Source of the DNA: Metabacillus sediminilitoris
GTDB taxonomy: Bacteria > Bacillota > Bacilli > Bacillales > Bacillaceae
Reading direction: 5' to 3'
Assembly (NCBI RefSeq): GCF_009720625.1
Contig: NZ_CP046266.1
Coordinates: 2,303,501 to 2,367,500 of the forward strand
DNA length: 64,000 nucleotides
Under the pieces are notes generated by a model. The model searched no databases. It saw nothing but the letters and a program-made list of their open reading frames with translations, and was not told where the DNA came from. The position numbers were made by a program, and so were the translations under genes. Below, one piece after another: positions 7,888-15,318 of this stretch; the first letter of the stretch is position 1; each line of letters begins with the position of its first letter.

Positions 7888-7982
7888 TATATGAAAAGTG
7901 AGATCATCAATAAAAACAGTTGATGTCTTCATCACAAACATACTGTAACAGCAGCATTTTTAGGGACAGGAGGGAAGGAATC

Positions 7983-9335
7983 TTGAAGCACTTTGATTTA
8001 ATCGTAATTGGTGCCGGACCAGGTGGGTATGTTGCAGCAATCAGGGCAGCTCAAAAAGGAAAGAAAGTAGCCATCATCGAAAAATCGTCTTTAGGTGGAA
8101 CATGTTTAAATGTTGGGTGCATTCCATCAAAGACATTTTTACAGCACAGCGAATGGCTTGAAAACATTAAAAAAGCGAATCTTTACGGGATCTCAGCTGA
8201 GGTAAAGCATATTGACTATGAGAGGCTTGTAGAACGTAAAGATAAAGTAGTGGGAACATTGGTACACGGCATTGAGTATTTGTTACAAAAAAACAACATC
8301 ACCTTGATTAAGGGTGAAGCAACGATATTGGAAAGCATGGTTGTGATGGTCAATCATCAAGAGTTCAAGAGCAAAGATATCATCCTTGCAACTGGAAGCA
8401 GACCGTATGTTCCGTCTATCAAGGGGCTAGACCAAGTGTTTTACCATACGACAGATAGCTTTTTTGATATAAAAGAACAGCCTAAAGAACTAATCATTAT
8501 TGGTGGGGGAGTAATTGGAATTGAATTAGCCTTTGCGATGGCTCCTCTTGGTACAAAGGTTACGGTCATTGAAGCAGCAGATGACATTCTTTTAACAGAA
8601 GACGACGATGCTCGTGAAATTTTAAAAAAGAAAATGGATCAGCTTGGAATCGCTTACTATACAAAAGCAACGATTCTTGACGTAACACGTACCGATGTAC
8701 ATTTAGAACATCATAAGATTCCTTACACGCATCTGCTTGTGGCAACAGGTAGGAGAGCTAATATCGAAATTGCCGATGCCTTACATTTAGAAATGGATGA
8801 AAACAAGAAATTTATTAAAGTGAATCGTAACTATTTAACGAGTAAAAATCATGTGTATGCCATTGGAGATGTAATAGGGGGCTATCAGCTTGCACATGTG
8901 GCAAGCCAGGAAGGATTAGTAGCTGTCGCGGCCATTCTTAATGAACGTCATTCTACAATAAATCAAGATGACATTCCTAGATGTGTGTACACACATCCTG
9001 AAATCGCCTCGTTTGGCCTTAATGAAAAGCAAGCGAAGGTAAAGGGATATGATGTGTTAACTAAGAAAATGACGTTTAAATCGAATGGAAGAGCAATAGC
9101 AATGGACGAAACAGAAGGATTTGTCAAATTAATCACCGAGAAAAATGATCATGAAATATTAGGGGCAGTTGTGGTTGGGGCAAATGCAACCGAGTTAATC
9201 AATCAAATTCTAGCCGTGAAGCAATCAGAAGGCCGAATTGAAGAACTGAGTTCACTTATATATGGACATCCCAACTTGTCAGAGACGATTGGTGAAACAG
9301 CCGAAAGTATGTTGTTTAAAGCGATTCACGCATAA
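7983..9335 (+). CDS. acoL: Dihydrolipoamide dehydrogenase (E3) of the acetoin complex
   Basis: A 450-residue flavoprotein that reoxidises dihydrolipoamide with NAD+. The N-terminal FAD motif is VIGAGPGGYVAA. The redox disulfide is C41-C46 in GGTCLNVGCIPSK. The NAD-binding motif is IIGGGVIGIELA, and the dimerisation domain ends in HPNLSETIGE with the active-site His-Glu pair. The TTG at 7983 is chosen because GGAGG lies nine bases upstream and the protein then begins with the expected KHFDLIVIG. It is the first gene of the operon, unlike the acoABCL order of B. subtilis. Confidence 0.93.
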   Translation: MKHFDLIVIGAGPGGYVAAIRAAQKGKKVAIIEKSSLGGTCLNVGCIPSKTFLQHSEWLENIKKANLYGISAEVKHIDYERLVERKDKVVGTLVHGIEYLLQKNNITLIKGEATILESMVVMVNHQEFKSKDIILATGSRPYVPSIKGLDQVFYHTTDSFFDIKEQPKELIIIGGGVIGIELAFAMAPLGTKVTVIEAADDILLTEDDDAREILKKKMDQLGIAYYTKATILDVTRTDVHLEHHKIPYTHLLVATGRRANIEIADALHLEMDENKKFIKVNRNYLTSKNHVYAIGDVIGGYQLAHVASQEGLVAVAAILNERHSTINQDDIPRCVYTHPEIASFGLNEKQAKVKGYDVLTKKMTFKSNGRAIAMDETEGFVKLITEKNDHEILGAVVVGANATELINQILAVKQSEGRIEELSSLIYGHPNLSETIGETAESMLFKAIHA

Positions 9336-9353
9336 AGAAGAGGAGGAATTATG

Positions 9354-10310
9354 ATGAAAAAGCAGGATGCGTTATGGATCTACCAAAAAATGAATGAAAT
9401 TCGTCAATTTGAAGACAAAGTTCACGATATATTTGCGAAGGGTGAAATACCTGGTTTTGTGCACTTATATGCAGGTGAGGAAGCTGTTGCAACAGGTTTT
9501 TGTGCCCATTTAACTGATAGCGATTACATTACTAGTACCCATCGAGGACATGGACATTGTATTGCCAAGGGATGTGATTTAGATGGAATGATGGCAGAGA
9601 TTTATGGCAAAGAAACCGGACTTTGTAAAGGAAAAGGCGGTTCCATGCATATTGCGGATATTGACAAAGGGATGCTCGGTGCAAATGGAATGGTTGGTGG
9701 AGGTATTCCTCTCGCTGTAGGAGCGGGACTTAGGAATAAGTATTTAAAGACTGATTCTGTCGTTGTTTGTTTCTTCGGTGATGGTGCGGCAAATGAGGGA
9801 ACATTCCATGAAGGTCTTAATTTAGCATCTATTTGGAAACTGCCTGTTATCTTCGTTTGTGAAAATAATATGTTTGCTGAGGCAACACCACAAACCTATT
9901 CTTCAGGCTCAAAAACGATTGCTGAAAGAAGCGCAGCGTATAACATGCCTGGAGTTAGGGTTGATGGAAAAGATGTGCTTGAAGTCTATAAGGAAGCGGA
10001 GAAAGCGATCGAGCGTGCGAGACGTGGGGAAGGACCGACTTTAATCGAATGTGTGACTTATCGTAACTATGGTCATTTTGAGGGAGATGAACAAAAGTAT
10101 AAAGCAAAGGATGGAGCAGAAAAAGAGCTTGCTGATAAAGATTGTATTTCCCTTTTCCGTAAGCAGGCCATTGAGCTAAATCTCATCTCAGAGATCGAAG
10201 CAGATGAAATTGAGAAAGTTTCGGAAGAAAAGATTATTGAAGCGATTAAATTTGCTGAGAATAGTCCGGAGCCAAGAGCAGAATCTTTATATGAAGATGT
10301 ATATGCTTAA
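9354..10310 (+). CDS. acoA: Acetoin dehydrogenase E1 component, alpha subunit
   Basis: Thiamine-diphosphate-dependent E1 alpha subunit, 318 residues. It shows GDGAANEGTFHEGLNLASIWKLP-type TPP/Mg binding (GDGAAN with the ENN motif in VCENNMF) and HRGHGHCIAKG. With the beta subunit it cleaves acetoin into acetaldehyde and an acetyl group passed to lipoate. AGGAGG lies seven bases before the ATG at 9354; another ATG sits at 9351. It starts 18 bases after acoL and is co-transcribed with it. Confidence 0.93.
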   Translation: MKKQDALWIYQKMNEIRQFEDKVHDIFAKGEIPGFVHLYAGEEAVATGFCAHLTDSDYITSTHRGHGHCIAKGCDLDGMMAEIYGKETGLCKGKGGSMHIADIDKGMLGANGMVGGGIPLAVGAGLRNKYLKTDSVVVCFFGDGAANEGTFHEGLNLASIWKLPVIFVCENNMFAEATPQTYSSGSKTIAERSAAYNMPGVRVDGKDVLEVYKEAEKAIERARRGEGPTLIECVTYRNYGHFEGDEQKYKAKDGAEKELADKDCISLFRKQAIELNLISEIEADEIEKVSEEKIIEAIKFAENSPEPRAESLYEDVYA

Positions 10311-10334
10311 TCATTTGAAAGGGAGTGTCGAGAA

Positions 10335-11372
10335 ATGGAAAGAAAAATAACGATGATGCAAGCAATCAATGAGGCGTTGGATATAGCGATGGCTCAAGAT
10401 GAACGAGTGATCCTGCTTGGTGAGGATATAGCGGGTGGTGCCACTGTCGAGCACTTAAATGAAACAGGAGCTTGGGGAGGTGTATTCGGCTTAACGAAAG
10501 GGTTAGTGGAAAAGTATGGAACAGAACGTGTGATCGATACACCGATTTCTGAAATGGGTTATATGGGAGCAGCAGTAGGGGCTGCAGCAACAGGCTTAAG
10601 ACCTATCCCGGAATTAATGTTTAATGACTTTCTTGGGTTCTGCTTTGACACCATCCTTGGACAAGGATCGAAAATGCGTTACATGTTCGGAGGAAAAGCA
10701 ACCATTCCAATGACGGTTCGAACAAATCATGGAGCAGGTGCATCAGCTGCAGCACAGCATTCAGGCTGTTATTACGGGATTCTTGGGTCCATTCCAGGAG
10801 TTAAGGTCGTTGTTCCTTCCAATCCATATGATGCAAAAGGATTACTGCTTTCATCTATTAAGGATGATAACATCGTTGTATTCTCAGAGGATAAAACCAT
10901 TTATGGTCTAAAAGGTGAAGTTCCTGAAGGATATTATACGGTTGAAATTGGAAAAGCAAAGGTGAAAAGAGAAGGTACTGACTTAACGATTGTTTCAATC
11001 GGAAAAATGTTCTATGTAGCGGAAGAGGTGGCAGATCGTTTAGCAAAGCAGGATATCTCAGTAGAAGTCATCGATCTGTTAACGGTGGCTCCATGGGATC
11101 AGGAGACTGTTATCAATTCTGTTAAAAAGACCAACCGATTAATCGTGATTGATGAATCGAATCCACACAATAATACGGCTACTGATATTGCGAGTGTCGT
11201 ATCAGATAAAGCGTTTGATTATTTGGATGCTCCAGTTAAATGTGTATGTGCACCGAACACACCTGTTCCATTTGCAAAGAACCTTGAGGACCTATATATT
11301 CCAAATGTAGATAAAGTCTTAAAGGTAGCAGAAGAAATTATCTTTGATTTAAATAAGAGAATCTTAGTTTAA
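10335..11372 (+). CDS. acoB: Acetoin dehydrogenase E1 component, beta subunit
   Basis: A 345-residue transketolase-like E1 beta subunit, with the TPP-binding glutamate region GEDIAGGATVEHLN, IDTPISEMGYMGAAVG and the C-terminal domain (IGKMFYVAEEVADRL, VIDLLTVAPWD). It forms the alpha2beta2 E1 with AcoA. It starts 24 bases after acoA with a GGGAG site. Confidence 0.93.
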   Translation: MERKITMMQAINEALDIAMAQDERVILLGEDIAGGATVEHLNETGAWGGVFGLTKGLVEKYGTERVIDTPISEMGYMGAAVGAAATGLRPIPELMFNDFLGFCFDTILGQGSKMRYMFGGKATIPMTVRTNHGAGASAAAQHSGCYYGILGSIPGVKVVVPSNPYDAKGLLLSSIKDDNIVVFSEDKTIYGLKGEVPEGYYTVEIGKAKVKREGTDLTIVSIGKMFYVAEEVADRLAKQDISVEVIDLLTVAPWDQETVINSVKKTNRLIVIDESNPHNNTATDIASVVSDKAFDYLDAPVKCVCAPNTPVPFAKNLEDLYIPNVDKVLKVAEEIIFDLNKRILV

Positions 11373-11386
11373 GGTGGTGAATAATC

Positions 11387-12628
11387 ATGGCAACAGATGT
11401 TTTAATGCCTAAGTTGGGGTTAACGATGACTAGTGGAAATGTGGATGAATGGTTCAAAAAAGAAGGAGAACCCGTTAAAAAGGGAGAGCCTATCTGCACG
11501 ATCAGTTCTGAAAAATTAACAATGGATGTAGAAGCACCAGCAGATGGGGTGTTATTAAAAGTCATTGCACAACAGGGGGCGGAAGTACCGGTTAAAGAAG
11601 TAATTGGAATTGTTGCTCAAGATGGTGAAGCAATCCTTTCTCAGCCTGCCGAAATAGCCCCAGAAGACAAGCTAGAAGGTAAAGAAATAGAACAGAAGAA
11701 TGTGCCTCAAATCGAAAAACCAATCGAATCGCACTCAGGACGTATTTTTGCTAGTCCACTTGCTAGGAAATTAGCAAAAGAGAAGAATATTAATCTCGCT
11801 TTGGTTAGAGGTACAGGTGGAAATAATCGGATTACCAGAAGAGATATAGAAGCTTATGAAATTTCTTCTTCTAAGGAAGTAGCTCCTGCGGTTGAAATTC
11901 ATTCTTTCCCGGTCAACACGGCTGACCGAAACCTTGGTACAGGACTCACGGGTATGCGTATGGTTATTGCCAAAAGAATGAGAAATAGTTTAGCTCAATC
12001 GGCTCAATTAACGATTCATAGAAAAGCTGATTTAACTGCTTTTATGTTGTTTAAACAGACTATTAAGGGCCATCTTACCGAAACAGAAATCGCTGGTAGT
12101 CTTAGTCTTACTGTTTGTGTTGCCAAAGCGACGATTCTAGCATTAAGAGAGTTTCCTGAGATGAATAGTTGGTATGAACTGGATATGAATGGCTTCCAAA
12201 CCTTTGAAGAAGTCCATCTTGGAATGGCAACTGCTTTATCGGACGGACTGATGGTACCGGTCATACGGAATGCTCACCAGATGAGCTTAAAGGAATTAAG
12301 TGGAAACATCACAAGGACTACACAAGCGGCACGAGAAGGAAGCCTTGAAAACGATCTCGTAACGGGTTCAACATTTACCATTACAAATCTAGGGCAAAGT
12401 GGTGTCGAATACTTTACTCCAATTTTAAATACACCTGAATCTGGCATTTTAGGGATAGGAAGTCTTCAAGACAAACTAACTCTGGATGAAGAAGGCCAAG
12501 TGGTTAAGAGCAAAGAACTGCCATTAAGCTTAACTTTTGATCACCAAATCATAGATGGAGCACCAGCAGCTGAGTTTCTGGCAAGGGTCATCTATTATTT
12601 AGAGAACCCTTATTCACTTATATTATAG
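11387..12628 (+). CDS. acoC: Acetoin dehydrogenase E2 (dihydrolipoamide acetyltransferase)
   Basis: A 413-residue E2 core enzyme that moves the acetyl group to CoA. It has an N-terminal lipoyl domain with Lys43 in SSEKLTMDV as the likely lipoylation site. The peripheral-subunit-binding domain is around residues 120-160 (FASPLARKLAKEKNI, RITRRDIEAY). The catalytic domain ends in LTFDHQIIDGAPAAEF with the HxxxDG motif. It is the last gene of the aco operon, 14 bases after acoB. Confidence 0.93.
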   Translation: MATDVLMPKLGLTMTSGNVDEWFKKEGEPVKKGEPICTISSEKLTMDVEAPADGVLLKVIAQQGAEVPVKEVIGIVAQDGEAILSQPAEIAPEDKLEGKEIEQKNVPQIEKPIESHSGRIFASPLARKLAKEKNINLALVRGTGGNNRITRRDIEAYEISSSKEVAPAVEIHSFPVNTADRNLGTGLTGMRMVIAKRMRNSLAQSAQLTIHRKADLTAFMLFKQTIKGHLTETEIAGSLSLTVCVAKATILALREFPEMNSWYELDMNGFQTFEEVHLGMATALSDGLMVPVIRNAHQMSLKELSGNITRTTQAAREGSLENDLVTGSTFTITNLGQSGVEYFTPILNTPESGILGIGSLQDKLTLDEEGQVVKSKELPLSLTFDHQIIDGAPAAEFLARVIYYLENPYSLIL

Positions 12629-12817
12629 GTAATTGAGATATCATCTTCTAAAGTAGAGGAACCAACATGATTCAAACAAATATGTCCGCTTTGATATTGA
12701 AGCTTAGGAACCCCTTAAGGAAATTGTAAAGCCTGTTGGGTACGGAATTTCAGTCTATACCTTAACTTAACAACACTGAATACGTTTTAGCAGGCAAAAG
12801 AGCTCCCTGAAATATTT

Positions 12818-13000
12818 ATGAAATTTGCGTTGTGGAGAATGCTAAGACGAATTTCAGACAGAGTTCAATTTGTTCTAGATGACCAACATTTGGATAAAGC
12901 GACTAGGATTGAAAGCTACCGTATTAAGCATTTAACGATCGAAATAAATGCAATACAAAAGACGCTTTTAATAAACAAAGGATCTGAAACGAAGGCTTAG
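12818..13000 (+). CDS. Hypothetical 60-residue basic protein
   Basis: The frame encodes a charged helical protein (RRISDRVQFVLDDQHLDKA, TIEINAIQKTLLINKG). No convincing ribosome binding site precedes the ATG, and the sequence between acoC and here holds stop-interrupted coding-like sequence, so it may be a remnant. Its stop codon coincides with the start of a dispersed repeat. Confidence 0.3.
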   Translation: MKFALWRMLRRISDRVQFVLDDQHLDKATRIESYRIKHLTIEINAIQKTLLINKGSETKA

Positions 13001-13098
13001 ATTTTGAGGGCTTGTTAAAAAATCCCTCTATGTATTTAAAGAGATAGTAAGTTACATTTAGTAAATACATCTTAAGAGATCATATAGAGGGAACCTTA
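12998..13098. repeat. Dispersed repeat, copy 1 (related to 26264-26370)
   Basis: About 100 bp beginning TAGATTTTGAGGGCTTGTTA, with short complementary ends CCCTCTAT (13024-13031) and ATAGAGGG (13084-13091). A diverged copy lies 13 kb away. It looks like a small palindromic mobile repeat. Confidence 0.6.
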
Positions 13099-13392
13099 AA
13101 TAATAATAAAAAGTATTTAAACGGAGAATTATTGGAAATATTCAATAATCATAAAAGTGAAGAAAAAGCTTAATAAGTTTGCTAATACCTGGTTTATTTT
13201 ATTCATCAGGTGAATATCGCCAAAAATAAAGTAAATGTATACGTAAGAGTATAGCTGTGCGTTAATTGCGCAAGAACGGTTCTGTATGGGGAAGGTGTCT
13301 AATTTACCCTAAGAAAGAAAAACTTCCTTGAATAAAAACTTACTTTTCATTTGGTTTTTATAATAAATGGGAATTGTAAACGATATGTGATG

Positions 13393-13421
13393 TTGTTTTC
13401 CATAAAAAAAATTGTTAAGAT
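13393..13421 (+). promoter_or_regulatory. Promoter of the ABC-F leader
   Basis: TTGTTT (13393-13398), a 17-base spacer and TAAGAT (13416-13421). Transcription would begin near 13428, just before the short upstream frames and the attenuator hairpins. Confidence 0.5.
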
Positions 13422-13430
13422 TAAAATACA

Positions 13431-13468
13431 ATGATGAGAGGACTGATGGATGGACAATGATTAACTAA
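13431..13468 (+). CDS. Candidate upstream mini-ORFs of the attenuator
   Basis: Two overlapping frames precede the first hairpin. One encodes MDGQ (or MMRGLMDGQ from 13431) and ends at 13460. The other is ATG-ATT-AAC-TAA at 13457-13468 (M-I-N-stop). The ATGA overlap suggests coupling. A ribosome stopped on the three-codon frame would cover 13464-13468, the 5' arm of hairpin 1. Purely sequence-based. Confidence 0.4.
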
Positions 13469-13641
13469 TCTATATTTTTATTTGAAATGAATAACTTCAA
13501 ACTACAAAATATAGGATTAGTCTATCCATTTTTATAAATCAATTTACACTTTATTTGTCATGATTCCAATGGCAAAAAAGCACCTTATTTACTATAAGTG
13601 AAAGACTAATCCTTCCAATTACAAATTGGGAGGATTTTTTT
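13464..13641 (+). promoter_or_regulatory. Transcription attenuator upstream of the ABC-F gene
   Basis: Three mutually exclusive pairings are visible. Hairpin 1 pairs 13464-13478 with 13506-13521 (one bulge). An antiterminator pairs GGATTAGTC (13514-13522) with GACTAATCC (13604-13612). The terminator pairs AATCCTTCCAATT (13608-13620) with 13624-13636 and is followed by seven T. Hairpin 1 consumes the antiterminator's first arm, and the antiterminator consumes the terminator's first arm. No gene precedes the terminator, so it acts on the leader itself. Confidence 0.75.
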
Positions 13642-13691
13642 ATTCTCTCATTGATAAGATTTTATATCGAATAAATAAAGGAGGGAGAGAC

Positions 13692-13745
13692 ATGAGCAAT
13701 TCAGATACGATTGTTACGCATGTAATACTCCGTATAAGTCGTTAA
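13692..13745 (+). CDS. 17-residue leader peptide of the ABC-F gene
   Basis: AAAGGAGGG with a six-base spacer precedes ATG, encoding MSNSDTIVTHVILRISR and stop. The last codons overlap CTCCGTATAAG (13728-13738), which is perfectly complementary to 13757-13767. A second pairing (ATCCATC at 13747-13753 with GATGGAT at 13779-13785) crosses the first. This is the layout of drug-responsive translational leaders. Confidence 0.65.
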   Translation: MSNSDTIVTHVILRISR

Positions 13746-13828
13746 TATCCATCAACCTTATACGGAGAAATGAGAATCGATGGATGTGCCGACTTTGTAT
13801 GAAAAGTAAAAAGTGTTGATATACAAAG
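13728..13828 (+). promoter_or_regulatory. Translational leader structures next to the ABC-F start
   Basis: Besides the two leader pairings, CTTTGTAT (13793-13800) is perfectly complementary to ATACAAAG (13821-13828). The latter runs into the ABC-F ribosome binding site AAAGGAGG (13825-13832), so the hairpin would mask initiation until leader translation rearranges the RNA. Confidence 0.6.
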
Positions 13829-13839
13829 GAGGAATGATC

Positions 13840-15318
13840 ATGTCAATGATACAAGTACAAAACTTAACTTTTTCTTATCCAGGAAGCTTTGACAATATTT
13901 TTGAAGATGTAAACTTTCAAATCGATACAGATTGGAAACTTGGATTTATCGGCAGAAATGGCCGAGGTAAAACAACATTCTTTCATTTACTATTAGGGAA
14001 TTATGAGTATCGTGGAAAAATCATTTTCTCGGTAGAATTTAATTATTTCCCTTATCCAGTTTCGGATAAAAACAAGTATACTCATGAAATCTTAGATGAA
14101 ATTTGCCCCCAAGCAGAAGATTGGGAATTTCTTCGTGAAATATCCTACCTAAATATAGATGCCGAGGTCATGTACCGACCATTTAAAACATTATCAAATG
14201 GAGAACAAACAAAGGTGTTGCTTGCTGCACTTTTTTTGAATGAGGGTCAATTTCTATTGATTGATGAGCCAACCAATCATCTAGACACTGATGCACGAAA
14301 GATAGTCTCTGATTATCTAAGGCAGAAAAAAGGGTTTATCTTAATTTCACATGACAGAATCTTTTTAGATGGATGTGTTGACCATATCTTATCTATAAAT
14401 CGAGCAAATATTGAAGTTCAAAGTGGTAACTATTCTTCTTGGAAGTTAAATTTTGATCGACAGCAGGAACACGAAGAGGCAACAAATCAACGTCTGCAAA
14501 AAGATATCGGGAGATTAAAACAGTCTTCAAAGCGCTCAGCAGGTTGGTCTAATCAAGTGGAATCTTCCAAAAATGGAACAACGAATTCGGGTTCTAAGTT
14601 GGATAAGGGGTATGTAGGACATAAAGCGGCAAAGATGATGAAGAGAGCGAAGAACCTTGAATCAAGGCAACAAAAAGCGATTGAGGAAAAGTCTAAGCTG
14701 CTAAAAAATGTGGAAAAAACAGATTCATTAAAATTAGAACCATTAGAATTTCAATCAAATGAATTGATTAATTTGACTAATGTGTCTGTTAAGTACGATG
14801 ACCAAATAGTGAATAAGCCAATTAGCTTTAAAGTTGAACAAGGTGACCGCATTGTACTTGATGGAAAGAATGGAAGCGGAAAAAGCAGTATCCTAAAACT
14901 AATTCTAGGAAAACCGATACAGCATACAGGCTCAATGAATGTAAGTTCAGGCCTCATTATTTCCTATGTCCAACAAGATACCTCTCATTTAAAGGGACTG
15001 TTATCTGACTTTATTGAAGAGCATGAGATTGATGAAACGTTATTTAAATCCATCCTGCGTAAGCTGGATTTTGACCGAATTCAATTTGCGAAAGATCTAT
15101 CTCATTATTCTGGTGGACAAAAGAAAAAGCTGCTTATTGCCAAAAGTTTATGTGAAAAAGCTCATTTATATATTTGGGATGAACCATTAAACTTTATAGA
15201 TATTTATTCGCGCATGCAGATTGAAGAGCTTATTCAGAGTTTTAATCCTACAATGGTTATTGTTGAACATGATCAAGCATTTCAACAAACAGTTGCAACA
15301 AAAGTACTATCAATGTAG
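13840..15318 (+). CDS. ABC-F ribosome-protection protein, Lsa-like
   Basis: A 492-residue protein with two ATP-binding cassettes and no membrane segments, as in the ABC-F class that displaces antibiotics from the ribosome. Walker A motifs are GRNGRGKT (residues 38-45) and GKNGSGKS; signatures are LSNGEQTKVLL and YSGGQKKKLL; Walker B regions are LLIDEPTNHLD and LYIWDEPLNFID. The interdomain linker is long and basic (HKAAKMMKRAKNLESRQQ). Wording and length are closest to Lsa(A), which gives lincosamide, streptogramin A and pleuromutilin resistance; this drug profile is an inference. The ATG at 13840 has AAAGGAGG seven bases upstream. Confidence 0.88.
   Translation: MSMIQVQNLTFSYPGSFDNIFEDVNFQIDTDWKLGFIGRNGRGKTTFFHLLLGNYEYRGKIIFSVEFNYFPYPVSDKNKYTHEILDEICPQAEDWEFLREISYLNIDAEVMYRPFKTLSNGEQTKVLLAALFLNEGQFLLIDEPTNHLDTDARKIVSDYLRQKKGFILISHDRIFLDGCVDHILSINRANIEVQSGNYSSWKLNFDRQQEHEEATNQRLQKDIGRLKQSSKRSAGWSNQVESSKNGTTNSGSKLDKGYVGHKAAKMMKRAKNLESRQQKAIEEKSKLLKNVEKTDSLKLEPLEFQSNELINLTNVSVKYDDQIVNKPISFKVEQGDRIVLDGKNGSGKSSILKLILGKPIQHTGSMNVSSGLIISYVQQDTSHLKGLLSDFIEEHEIDETLFKSILRKLDFDRIQFAKDLSHYSGGQKKKLLIAKSLCEKAHLYIWDEPLNFIDIYSRMQIEELIQSFNPTMVIVEHDQAFQQTVATKVLSM

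Follow-up and report, generated by a model that had tools for sequence, protein, structure and literature searches.

Two probable ribosome-operated attenuators in series ahead of an lsa gene in Metabacillus sediminilitoris

The mRNA of an Lsa-family ABC-F gene in Metabacillus sediminilitoris probably carries two ribosome-operated attenuators in series. The gene lies in the window analysed here (64,000 nucleotides of contig NZ_CP046266.1, assembly GCF_009720625.1), and the elements ahead of it are collected in Table 1. Judged by its sequence, module 1 is a well-preserved leader of the ncr1575 family (RF02452) ahead of an Lsa gene. Module 2 (13677-13842) is a putative translational module which the first-pass annotation of this DNA had overlooked. 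It fills the space between the module-1 terminator and the lsa start codon, 199 nt beyond 13641, with a leader ORF and a switch of its own. That module 2 exists is well supported by sequence comparison, which also supports its OFF-state helices, the helix B:B' and the coding character of its leader; we further infer a stall at Val-Thr-His (VTH), an inducer, an open form in which the 3' half of arm A pairs arm C (A3':C), and kinetic trapping of that form. Module 2 is apparently undescribed; no description of it was found among open-licence papers.

Table 1. Features of the lsa leader and gene (positions in the window).
Feature	Position	Strand	Evidence
Module 1, ncr1575 (vmlR-like) transcription attenuator	13424..13641	+	RF02452 match
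Putative Shine-Dalgarno of uORF, GAGAGG	13436..13441	+	Sequence; presumed from vmlR-like position before SL-1 (PMC9226507, in part)
SL-1, anti-antiterminator hairpin	13445..13530	+	Fold; pairing in 28 leaders
uORF Met-Ile-Asn-stop	13457..13468	+	Read in sequence; a three-codon uORF is common to leaders
Antiterminator 5' arm, also part of SL-1	13513..13523	+	Fold; pairing in leaders
SL-2, putative pause hairpin	13549..13580	+	Fold; presumed by analogy with vmlR SL-2 (PMC9226507, in part)
TTATTT, candidate NusG pause motif (TTNTTT)	13585..13590	+	TTNTTT counts in leaders
Antiterminator 3' arm, overlapping terminator	13603..13613	+	Fold; pairing in leaders
Intrinsic terminator stem-loop, then T-rich run to 13641	13608..13636	+	Terminator scan, fold, pairing in leaders
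Shine-Dalgarno of second leader ORF	13677..13685	+	Sequence, conservation
Module 2 leader ORF, MSNSDTIVTHVILRISR*, 17 codons	13692..13745	+	Third-position-biased variation in 62 sequences; predicted ORF
Codons Val8-Thr9-His10, predicted stall motif	13713..13721	+	V/T/H conservation; stall presumed
Arm A, pairs A'; 3' part 13736-13741 can pair arm C	13728..13738	+	
Arm B	13745..13753	+	B:B' complementarity survives sequence replacement
Arm A'	13757..13767	+	A:A' pairing, 62 sequences
Arm B'	13779..13787	+	B:B' complementarity
Arm C, anti-Shine-Dalgarno	13789..13800	+	C:D pairing, 62 sequences
Arm D, with lsa Shine-Dalgarno 13826-13832	13821..13832	+	
Lsa-family (Lsa(B)-like) ABC-F ribosomal protection gene, 492 aa	13840..15318	+	NF000167

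The whole of module 1 matched RF02452 with 159.9 bits (gathering cut-off 60, E 7e-27) in an Rfam scan. When the entire window was scanned against 4227 Rfam families, only a tRNA and RF02452 reached the gathering level. The first-pass annotation had taken the attenuator for an independent or diverged example of a control similar to that of the Listeria ABC-F gene lmo0919. With RF02452 the only one of the 4227 families to match this region at gathering level, and found in relatives in front of further ABC-F genes, independence is not supported, and a separate origin of module 1 was rejected on the strength of that match. The overlapping arms of hairpin 1 (SL-1), antiterminator and terminator that it described were all found with small shifts in coordinates, hairpin 1 being larger than drawn there. 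The uORF reads ATG-ATT-AAC-TAA, and the inner 5' arm of hairpin 1 begins with its stop codon (13466-13468), in agreement with the earlier reading; the uORF sits in the SL-1 bulge, as expected of the ncr1575 leader family. The TTNTTT of ncr1575 leaders is present as TTATTT after SL-2, and the order AUGAUUAAC, TTATTT, CCUUCC is that of the elements of the vmlR leader (PMC9226507, in part). Ribosome-controlled transcription attenuation ahead of an ABC-F gene, the central claim of the first-pass annotation, is well supported by kinship to the dissected vmlR leader (PMC9226507, in part). It appears that ncr1575 is the same element as the vmlR leader of Bacillus subtilis, the match in B. subtilis having been scored per genome. 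The fold of 13393-13645 had a z of -3.65, with equal stability in none of 200 dinucleotide shuffles. The terminator scan by itself was not significant (2 found against a shuffle mean of 1.0, sd 1.0), and no promoter-like site was found on the + strand of 13300-13424. The block 13393-13418 is common to 7 of 10 compared relatives and is perhaps a promoter.

Module 1 was aligned in 28 leaders, 24 ahead of lsa and four ahead of other ABC-F genes. Covariation among homologous leaders, which had been named as a check, was found for hairpin 1 (88.5% of cells paired, 8 doubly changed cells, matched by 1 of 500 shuffles) and not for the antiterminator (95.4% paired, no double changes); the terminator (98.6% paired) showed one double change. 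A three-codon uORF was present within the first 60 nt in 57/57 leaders, a set in which two loci are counted twice and cfr-side copies are left out, and TTNTTT lay between SL-1 and the terminator in 46 of the 57 (mononucleotide shuffles: mean 25.7, maximum 35). The earlier expectation that a stalled ribosome would favour the antiterminator was borne out by modelled folding of nascent RNA ending at 13616, where placing a ribosome on the first, second or third uORF codon lifts the predicted antiterminator probability from 0.00 to 0.89. Once the RNA extends to 13641, the terminator prevails at equilibrium whether a ribosome is present or not (0.90-0.95); the module-1 switch must therefore work during transcription.

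The ncr1575 family was detected in 22 of 41 genomes (the window's own and 40 relatives) at 25 places, 7 above and 18 below the gathering cut-off. At all 25, the window included, the next gene reads as ABC-F or transporter-like, as judged by BLASTP to the window's protein for + strand loci and by eye from the N-terminus for the others. ABC-F was confirmed by NCBIfam for 8 of 10 tested proteins next to ncr1575. Among 14 control genomes, the family was found in B. subtilis only. Two sub-gathering ncr1575-like leaders with three-codon uORFs (L011 in G010, 51.6 bits; L024 in G032, 44.6 bits) precede genes that read as MFS-type transporters, not ABC-F; in NCBIfam the L011 protein matched TIGR00900 below its cut-off and the L024 protein had no match at the limit used. 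The attenuator may therefore have spread to another gene class.

The downstream gene was correctly called an ABC-F resistance gene (NF000167, 811.1 bits, cut-off 750). Its protein shares as much as 94% identity with Lsa-like proteins from Bacillus and Cytobacillus and groups in the protein tree with a plasmid copy of Priestia megaterium. The Lsa(B) annotation covers lincosamides and streptogramins, to which one predictor adds pleuromutilins. Both modules were found ahead of lsa(B) in the stretch examined of the Staphylococcus aureus plasmid pGMI17-006 (L027). Of 72,556 plasmid records, 11 contain module-2-like DNA: seven from Staphylococcus, two from Priestia, and one each from Lysinibacillus and Enterococcus. 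The Lysinibacillus capsici plasmid NZ_CP106866.1 has 6 places like module 2 and 12 like the longer query, which suggests that the lsa(B) segment was amplified. A decayed copy of the ncr1575 leader (110.7 bits) lies immediately 3' of cfr on the S. aureus plasmids pMSA16 and pGMI17-006 (L026:2685-2902, L027:1515-1732); an intact uORF was not seen in these copies by eye, and on pMSA16 no lsa-like sequence was found in the 600 bases compared after the copy. DNA like module 1 (42% of the query) was also seen at unannotated places on more plasmids, including those of Escherichia coli and Klebsiella. Elsewhere in the window, four ORFs at 7920-12628 resemble by eye an acetoin/2-oxoacid dehydrogenase operon (E3, E1 alpha, E1 beta, E2), and the intergenic stretch 13030-13418 contains an inverted repeat around CCCTCTATG as well as, by eye, a group II intron-like string near 13255-13290. 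Rfam lent no support, in 12600-13900 at E up to 1, to an intron remnant suspected there (about 13250-13310), and this reading was rejected.

The second leader ORF is constrained in its first part and free in the rest. Across 62 sequences V is kept in 60, T in 60, and H in 61, mostly via synonymous codons, the exceptions being Val-Val-His in L055 and L119 and Val-Thr-Tyr in L108. In every row an in-frame ATG lies 9 or 10 codons back, His included, and D or E stands five codons ahead of His. Over the six codons that end at His, non-major bases numbered 47, 37, and 103 at codon positions 1, 2, and 3. The residues after His are freely variable (49 different peptides of 13 to 36 residues in the 62 rows), and 60 rows have 6 nt between the His codon and arm A, the other two having 5. 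One base lost after His in L061 and L066 gives tails ending in DSV, in which LRISR is gone and VTH retained. LRISR was considered as a stall motif and rejected, since it is lost in these two sequences while VTH stays and since a ribosome edge at or beyond A+14 abolishes A3':C.

The repressed-state helices of module 2 were compared in the same 62 sequences. C:D joins CUUUGUAU to AUACAAAG and, across a GA/GA internal loop, CC to the last GG of GGAGG; folds of relatives and the pairs of the window have this helix burying the lsa Shine-Dalgarno. The fold of 13676-13870 had a z of -2.98, and 2 of 200 shuffles were equally stable. Doubly changed cells numbered 13 in A:A' (98.7% of cells paired) and 10 in C:D (98.5% paired), counts that 0 of 500 shuffles reached in either helix and that are inflated by relatedness, which shuffling destroys. 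Pairs with double changes were not unusually many (3 in A:A', 63/500 shuffles; 1 in C:D, 358/500 shuffles). For A3':C, 99.5% of cells were paired, with one doubly changed cell and no excess over shuffles (175/500). B:B' was compared cell by cell in 42 sequences (92.0% of cells paired; 5 doubly changed cells, reached by 27/500 shuffles). On the Clostridia side the B:B' sequence is replaced by CGGTGA/TCACCG or TTTGGTGAA/TTCACCGAA with complementarity kept; in L108 the helix is down to 4 bp. The best B:B' helix, picked per sequence and in the shuffles likewise, averaged 8.26 bp, while the shuffles averaged 5.16 bp and reached 5.53 bp at most. The corresponding base is altered jointly in A, A', C, and D in L117, L118, and L131. 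A short form of module 2, in which A' itself holds the lsa Shine-Dalgarno, was identified in L038, L039, L052, and L132. These four short variants were left out of A1/A2, as were L035 and L084-L088 (which nearly duplicate kept rows or score the same), repeats among L109-L133, L125, and the loci without a module-2 leader (L069, L071, L072, L077, and L092).

Among 51 lsa upstream regions, full module 2 was present in 43, the short form in 3 (L038, L039, and L052), and neither in 5. A covariance model of module 2 (R1), built from 42 sequences, gave matches in 17 of the 397 genomes from the order and in 11 of the 398 from the class, three genomes belonging to both sets. Its 25 loci, which include the window itself and several repeats of known loci, lie ahead of an Lsa-like ORF (judged by N-terminus and length) in 24 cases, the exception being L125 (36 bits). 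The search of distant, Clostridia-side lsa homologues (66-69% protein identity) gave R1 scores of 46-77 bits in 13 of 32 loci and nothing credible in 19; these records are mostly labelled Clostridia or unspecified Bacillota, with Bacteroidia given for one MAG. At gathering level, RF02452 was present in 33 of 60 loci scanned (18, 7, and 8 per 20) and in 0/20 further distant loci. In the protein tree of 62 selected rows, which has a midpoint root only, 28 rows have both modules and 22 only module 2; three have only module 1, six have neither, and the short module 2 is found with module 1 in 2 rows and without it in 1. The rows with module 2 alone include L040, which is cut by a contig end, and L051, with a 58.1-bit RF02452 match just under gathering. 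The 12 rows of the Clostridia/Anaeroplasma side, all of them scanned, have module 1 in 0/12 and module 2 in 7/12. This distribution suggests that module 2 has accompanied this lsa lineage for longer and that module 1 joined it later or has been lost repeatedly. In L040 (Gottfriedia endophytica), a group II intron match (RF00029, 48.2 bits, gathering 40) at L040:52-122 adjoins module 2 upstream, roughly at the expected site of module 1.

The behaviour of module 2 was modelled by folding. With RNA lacking arm D, the mean probability of A3':C in the 62 sequences was 0.51 without a ribosome, 0.62 with the ribosome edge at A+0, 0.93-0.98 with the edge at A+2 to A+10, 0.80 at A+11, and 0.00 at A+14 or beyond. 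The leading edge of a ribosome usually lies at P+16/17; it would then fall at A+2 when Val occupies the P site, at A+5 for Thr, and at A+8 for His, and the ribosome positions that favour A3':C therefore coincide with the conserved VTH motif. Three results argue against a plain switch by stalling. In the complete RNA at equilibrium, C:D (OFF) was preferred at all stall positions (0.78-0.96, 62 sequences), so the open state would have to be trapped as the RNA emerges, like that of module 1. Mean exposure of the Shine-Dalgarno against stall codon in 43 homologues was nearly flat (0.34-0.44) and gave no consistent signal; in the window it was 0.90, 0.36, and 0.61 at codons 8, 9, and 10, 0.28-0.59 at codons 1-7, and 0.29-0.30 at codons 12-18. 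The window's nascent RNA before D forms A3':C with a probability of 1.00 without a ribosome and with the VTH stall alike and is closed only by a ribosome edge at A+14 or later; a stall is therefore unnecessary for opening in the window. Its free RNA (13676-13880) had A:C at 0.83 against C:D at 0.22, with the Shine-Dalgarno 0.68 unpaired. According to these models, lsa of this species may be turned off by translating ribosomes that pass through arm A.

In the mechanism that we propose, SL-1 would form in the absence of drug and RNA polymerase would stop at about 13636-13641. A peptidyl-transferase drug would hold a ribosome on the Met-Ile-Asn uORF, whereupon SL-1 would open, the antiterminator form, and transcription continue; this antitermination by a stalled ribosome is proposed from homology with B. 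subtilis vmlR. Module 2 would then control translation. In the OFF state A:A' and C:D would be paired, C:D hiding the lsa Shine-Dalgarno. A ribosome stalled with its P site at Val8-Thr9-His10 would mask the 5' half of arm A and block A:A', leaving the 3' half and arm B free, and B:B' and A3':C could form ahead of the transcription of D, with the lsa Shine-Dalgarno left open. We suggest only tentatively, and with some doubt, that the second leader is a new drug-dependent arrest peptide with a VTH core, spread over Bacilli and part of the Clostridia, and that it forms a two-input gate with the MIN uORF. If so, an initiation-stalled ribosome would permit the transcript and a second, elongation-stalled ribosome its translation, and the step or drug class sensed by the VTH leader would differ from that sensed by the MIN uORF.

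Module 2 might instead work without any sequence-specific arrest, which we regard as rather unlikely. Ribosomes that reach the leader stop would clear arm A and reset the OFF state (C:D with A:A'), a drug hold at the start codon or lost leader translation would give A3':C and B:B' (ON), and VTH would be used otherwise. This reading fits the reports that LSAP drugs stall ribosomes at the start codon of ABC-F uORFs (PMC12421871, in part) and that vmlR is induced by arrest at initiation (PMC9226507, in part). It also fits the ribosome-free A3':C of the folding models (mean 0.51 in the 62 sequences, 1.00 in the window), which an edge past A+14 abolishes. However, it leaves unexplained why V-T-H is fixed 9-10 residues from the start and 6 nt from arm A. 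Moreover, arm A pairs the Shine-Dalgarno directly in the four short variants, so an early stall would keep the gene OFF there. An improbable alternative is a classical erm-type attenuator in which A' pairs C (2:3) when a ribosome masks arm A. The geometry of module 2 resembles that of erm leaders, and across 42 sequences A':C is possible in 96.7% of cells; yet it shows no double changes, one of its pairs is broken in 8 of the 42, its probability in the window never exceeds 0.02 under any stall tried, and it competes with the conserved B:B'.

That module 1 alone is regulatory and module 2 a passive or decaying relic seems very improbable to us. Three loci (L069, L072, and L077) do have module 1 without module 2, but covariation and coding constraint extend across Bacilli and part of the Clostridia, and module 2 stands without a gathering-level module 1 in 22 of the 62 selected tree rows. 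Hardly credible is the reading of 13424-13641 as a free-standing small RNA. RF02452 is typed 'Gene; sRNA' in Rfam, and the terminated product would be ~200 nt long; against this stand the ABC-F or transporter-like gene downstream at 25/25 places, the uORF and antiterminator, and the genetics of vmlR (PMC9226507, in part). The Rfam label of ncr1575 would probably be better given as cis-regulatory leader.

Two ribosome-operated attenuators in series remain our preferred account. Gates on transcription and on translation would help explain the silence of mobile lsa(B) in the absence of drug and would make the inducing drugs and their stall codons testable. As a candidate arrest peptide the VTH leader is compact and new, and its natural variants (VVH, VTY, one-base-shifted tails, short two-arm versions) provide ready comparisons.

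In B. subtilis, the vmlR leader has a uORF (MIN) in the bulge of SL-1, an SL-2 with the NusG pause motif TTNTTT, a terminator stem SL-3 with CCUUCC, and an SL-4 that leaves the Shine-Dalgarno of vmlR partly hidden (Takada et al., 2022; PMC9226507, in part). Mutations of the start codon, the Shine-Dalgarno, and the stems support antitermination by a stalled ribosome in that leader (PMC9226507, in part). The window shares with it the MIN uORF inside SL-1, the anti-antiterminator, the antiterminator, the CCUUCC terminator, TTNTTT after SL-2, and an ABC-F gene downstream, which is of the Lsa family, unlike vmlR. SL-4 is close to its gene in vmlR, whereas in the window terminator and gene are some 200 nt apart, with a second leader ORF and a distinct switch that would hide the Shine-Dalgarno in between; an SL-4 of the vmlR type, hiding the Shine-Dalgarno after the terminator and sharing the first uORF, was not found in the window. 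Since a separate leader ORF and switch take the place of SL-4, only module 1 is classed with the vmlR leader.

Module 2 is like erm-type attenuators in its leader of ~9-10 residues before the putative stall point, its mutually exclusive helices, and its hidden Shine-Dalgarno. It has a predicted coding leader ahead of that Shine-Dalgarno, and the erm repressed-state helices 1:2 and 3:4 are represented by A:A' and C:D. To our knowledge, VTH is not a known erm arrest motif. Unlike the erm type, module 2 lies downstream of a transcription attenuator, and its opening partner is probably the 3' half of arm A with B:B' as helper helix. Two leader peptides have been reported for ermB (PMC8274638, in part), and in Streptomyces ABC-F leaders LSAP drugs stall ribosomes at the start codon (PMC12421871, in part). 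LsaA has a uORF with the consensus MAGN; like the window's gene it is of the Lsa family with a short uORF, but that uORF differs, and the part of the source drawn on here does not mention a second leader (PMC10201436). In the mefA/msrD operon, two erythromycin-sensing leader peptides govern msrD by transcriptional attenuation (PMC10314930, in part). Two leader peptides thus act on a resistance gene in mefA/msrD, as proposed for the window, but there both act on transcription. The cplR leader of Clostridioides shows dual attenuation with a single uORF and shares with the window the combination of transcriptional and translational attenuation ahead of an ABC-F gene; in cplR one uORF and one terminator hairpin do both jobs, whereas the window has two uORFs and two predicted RNA switches (PMC10201436, in part).
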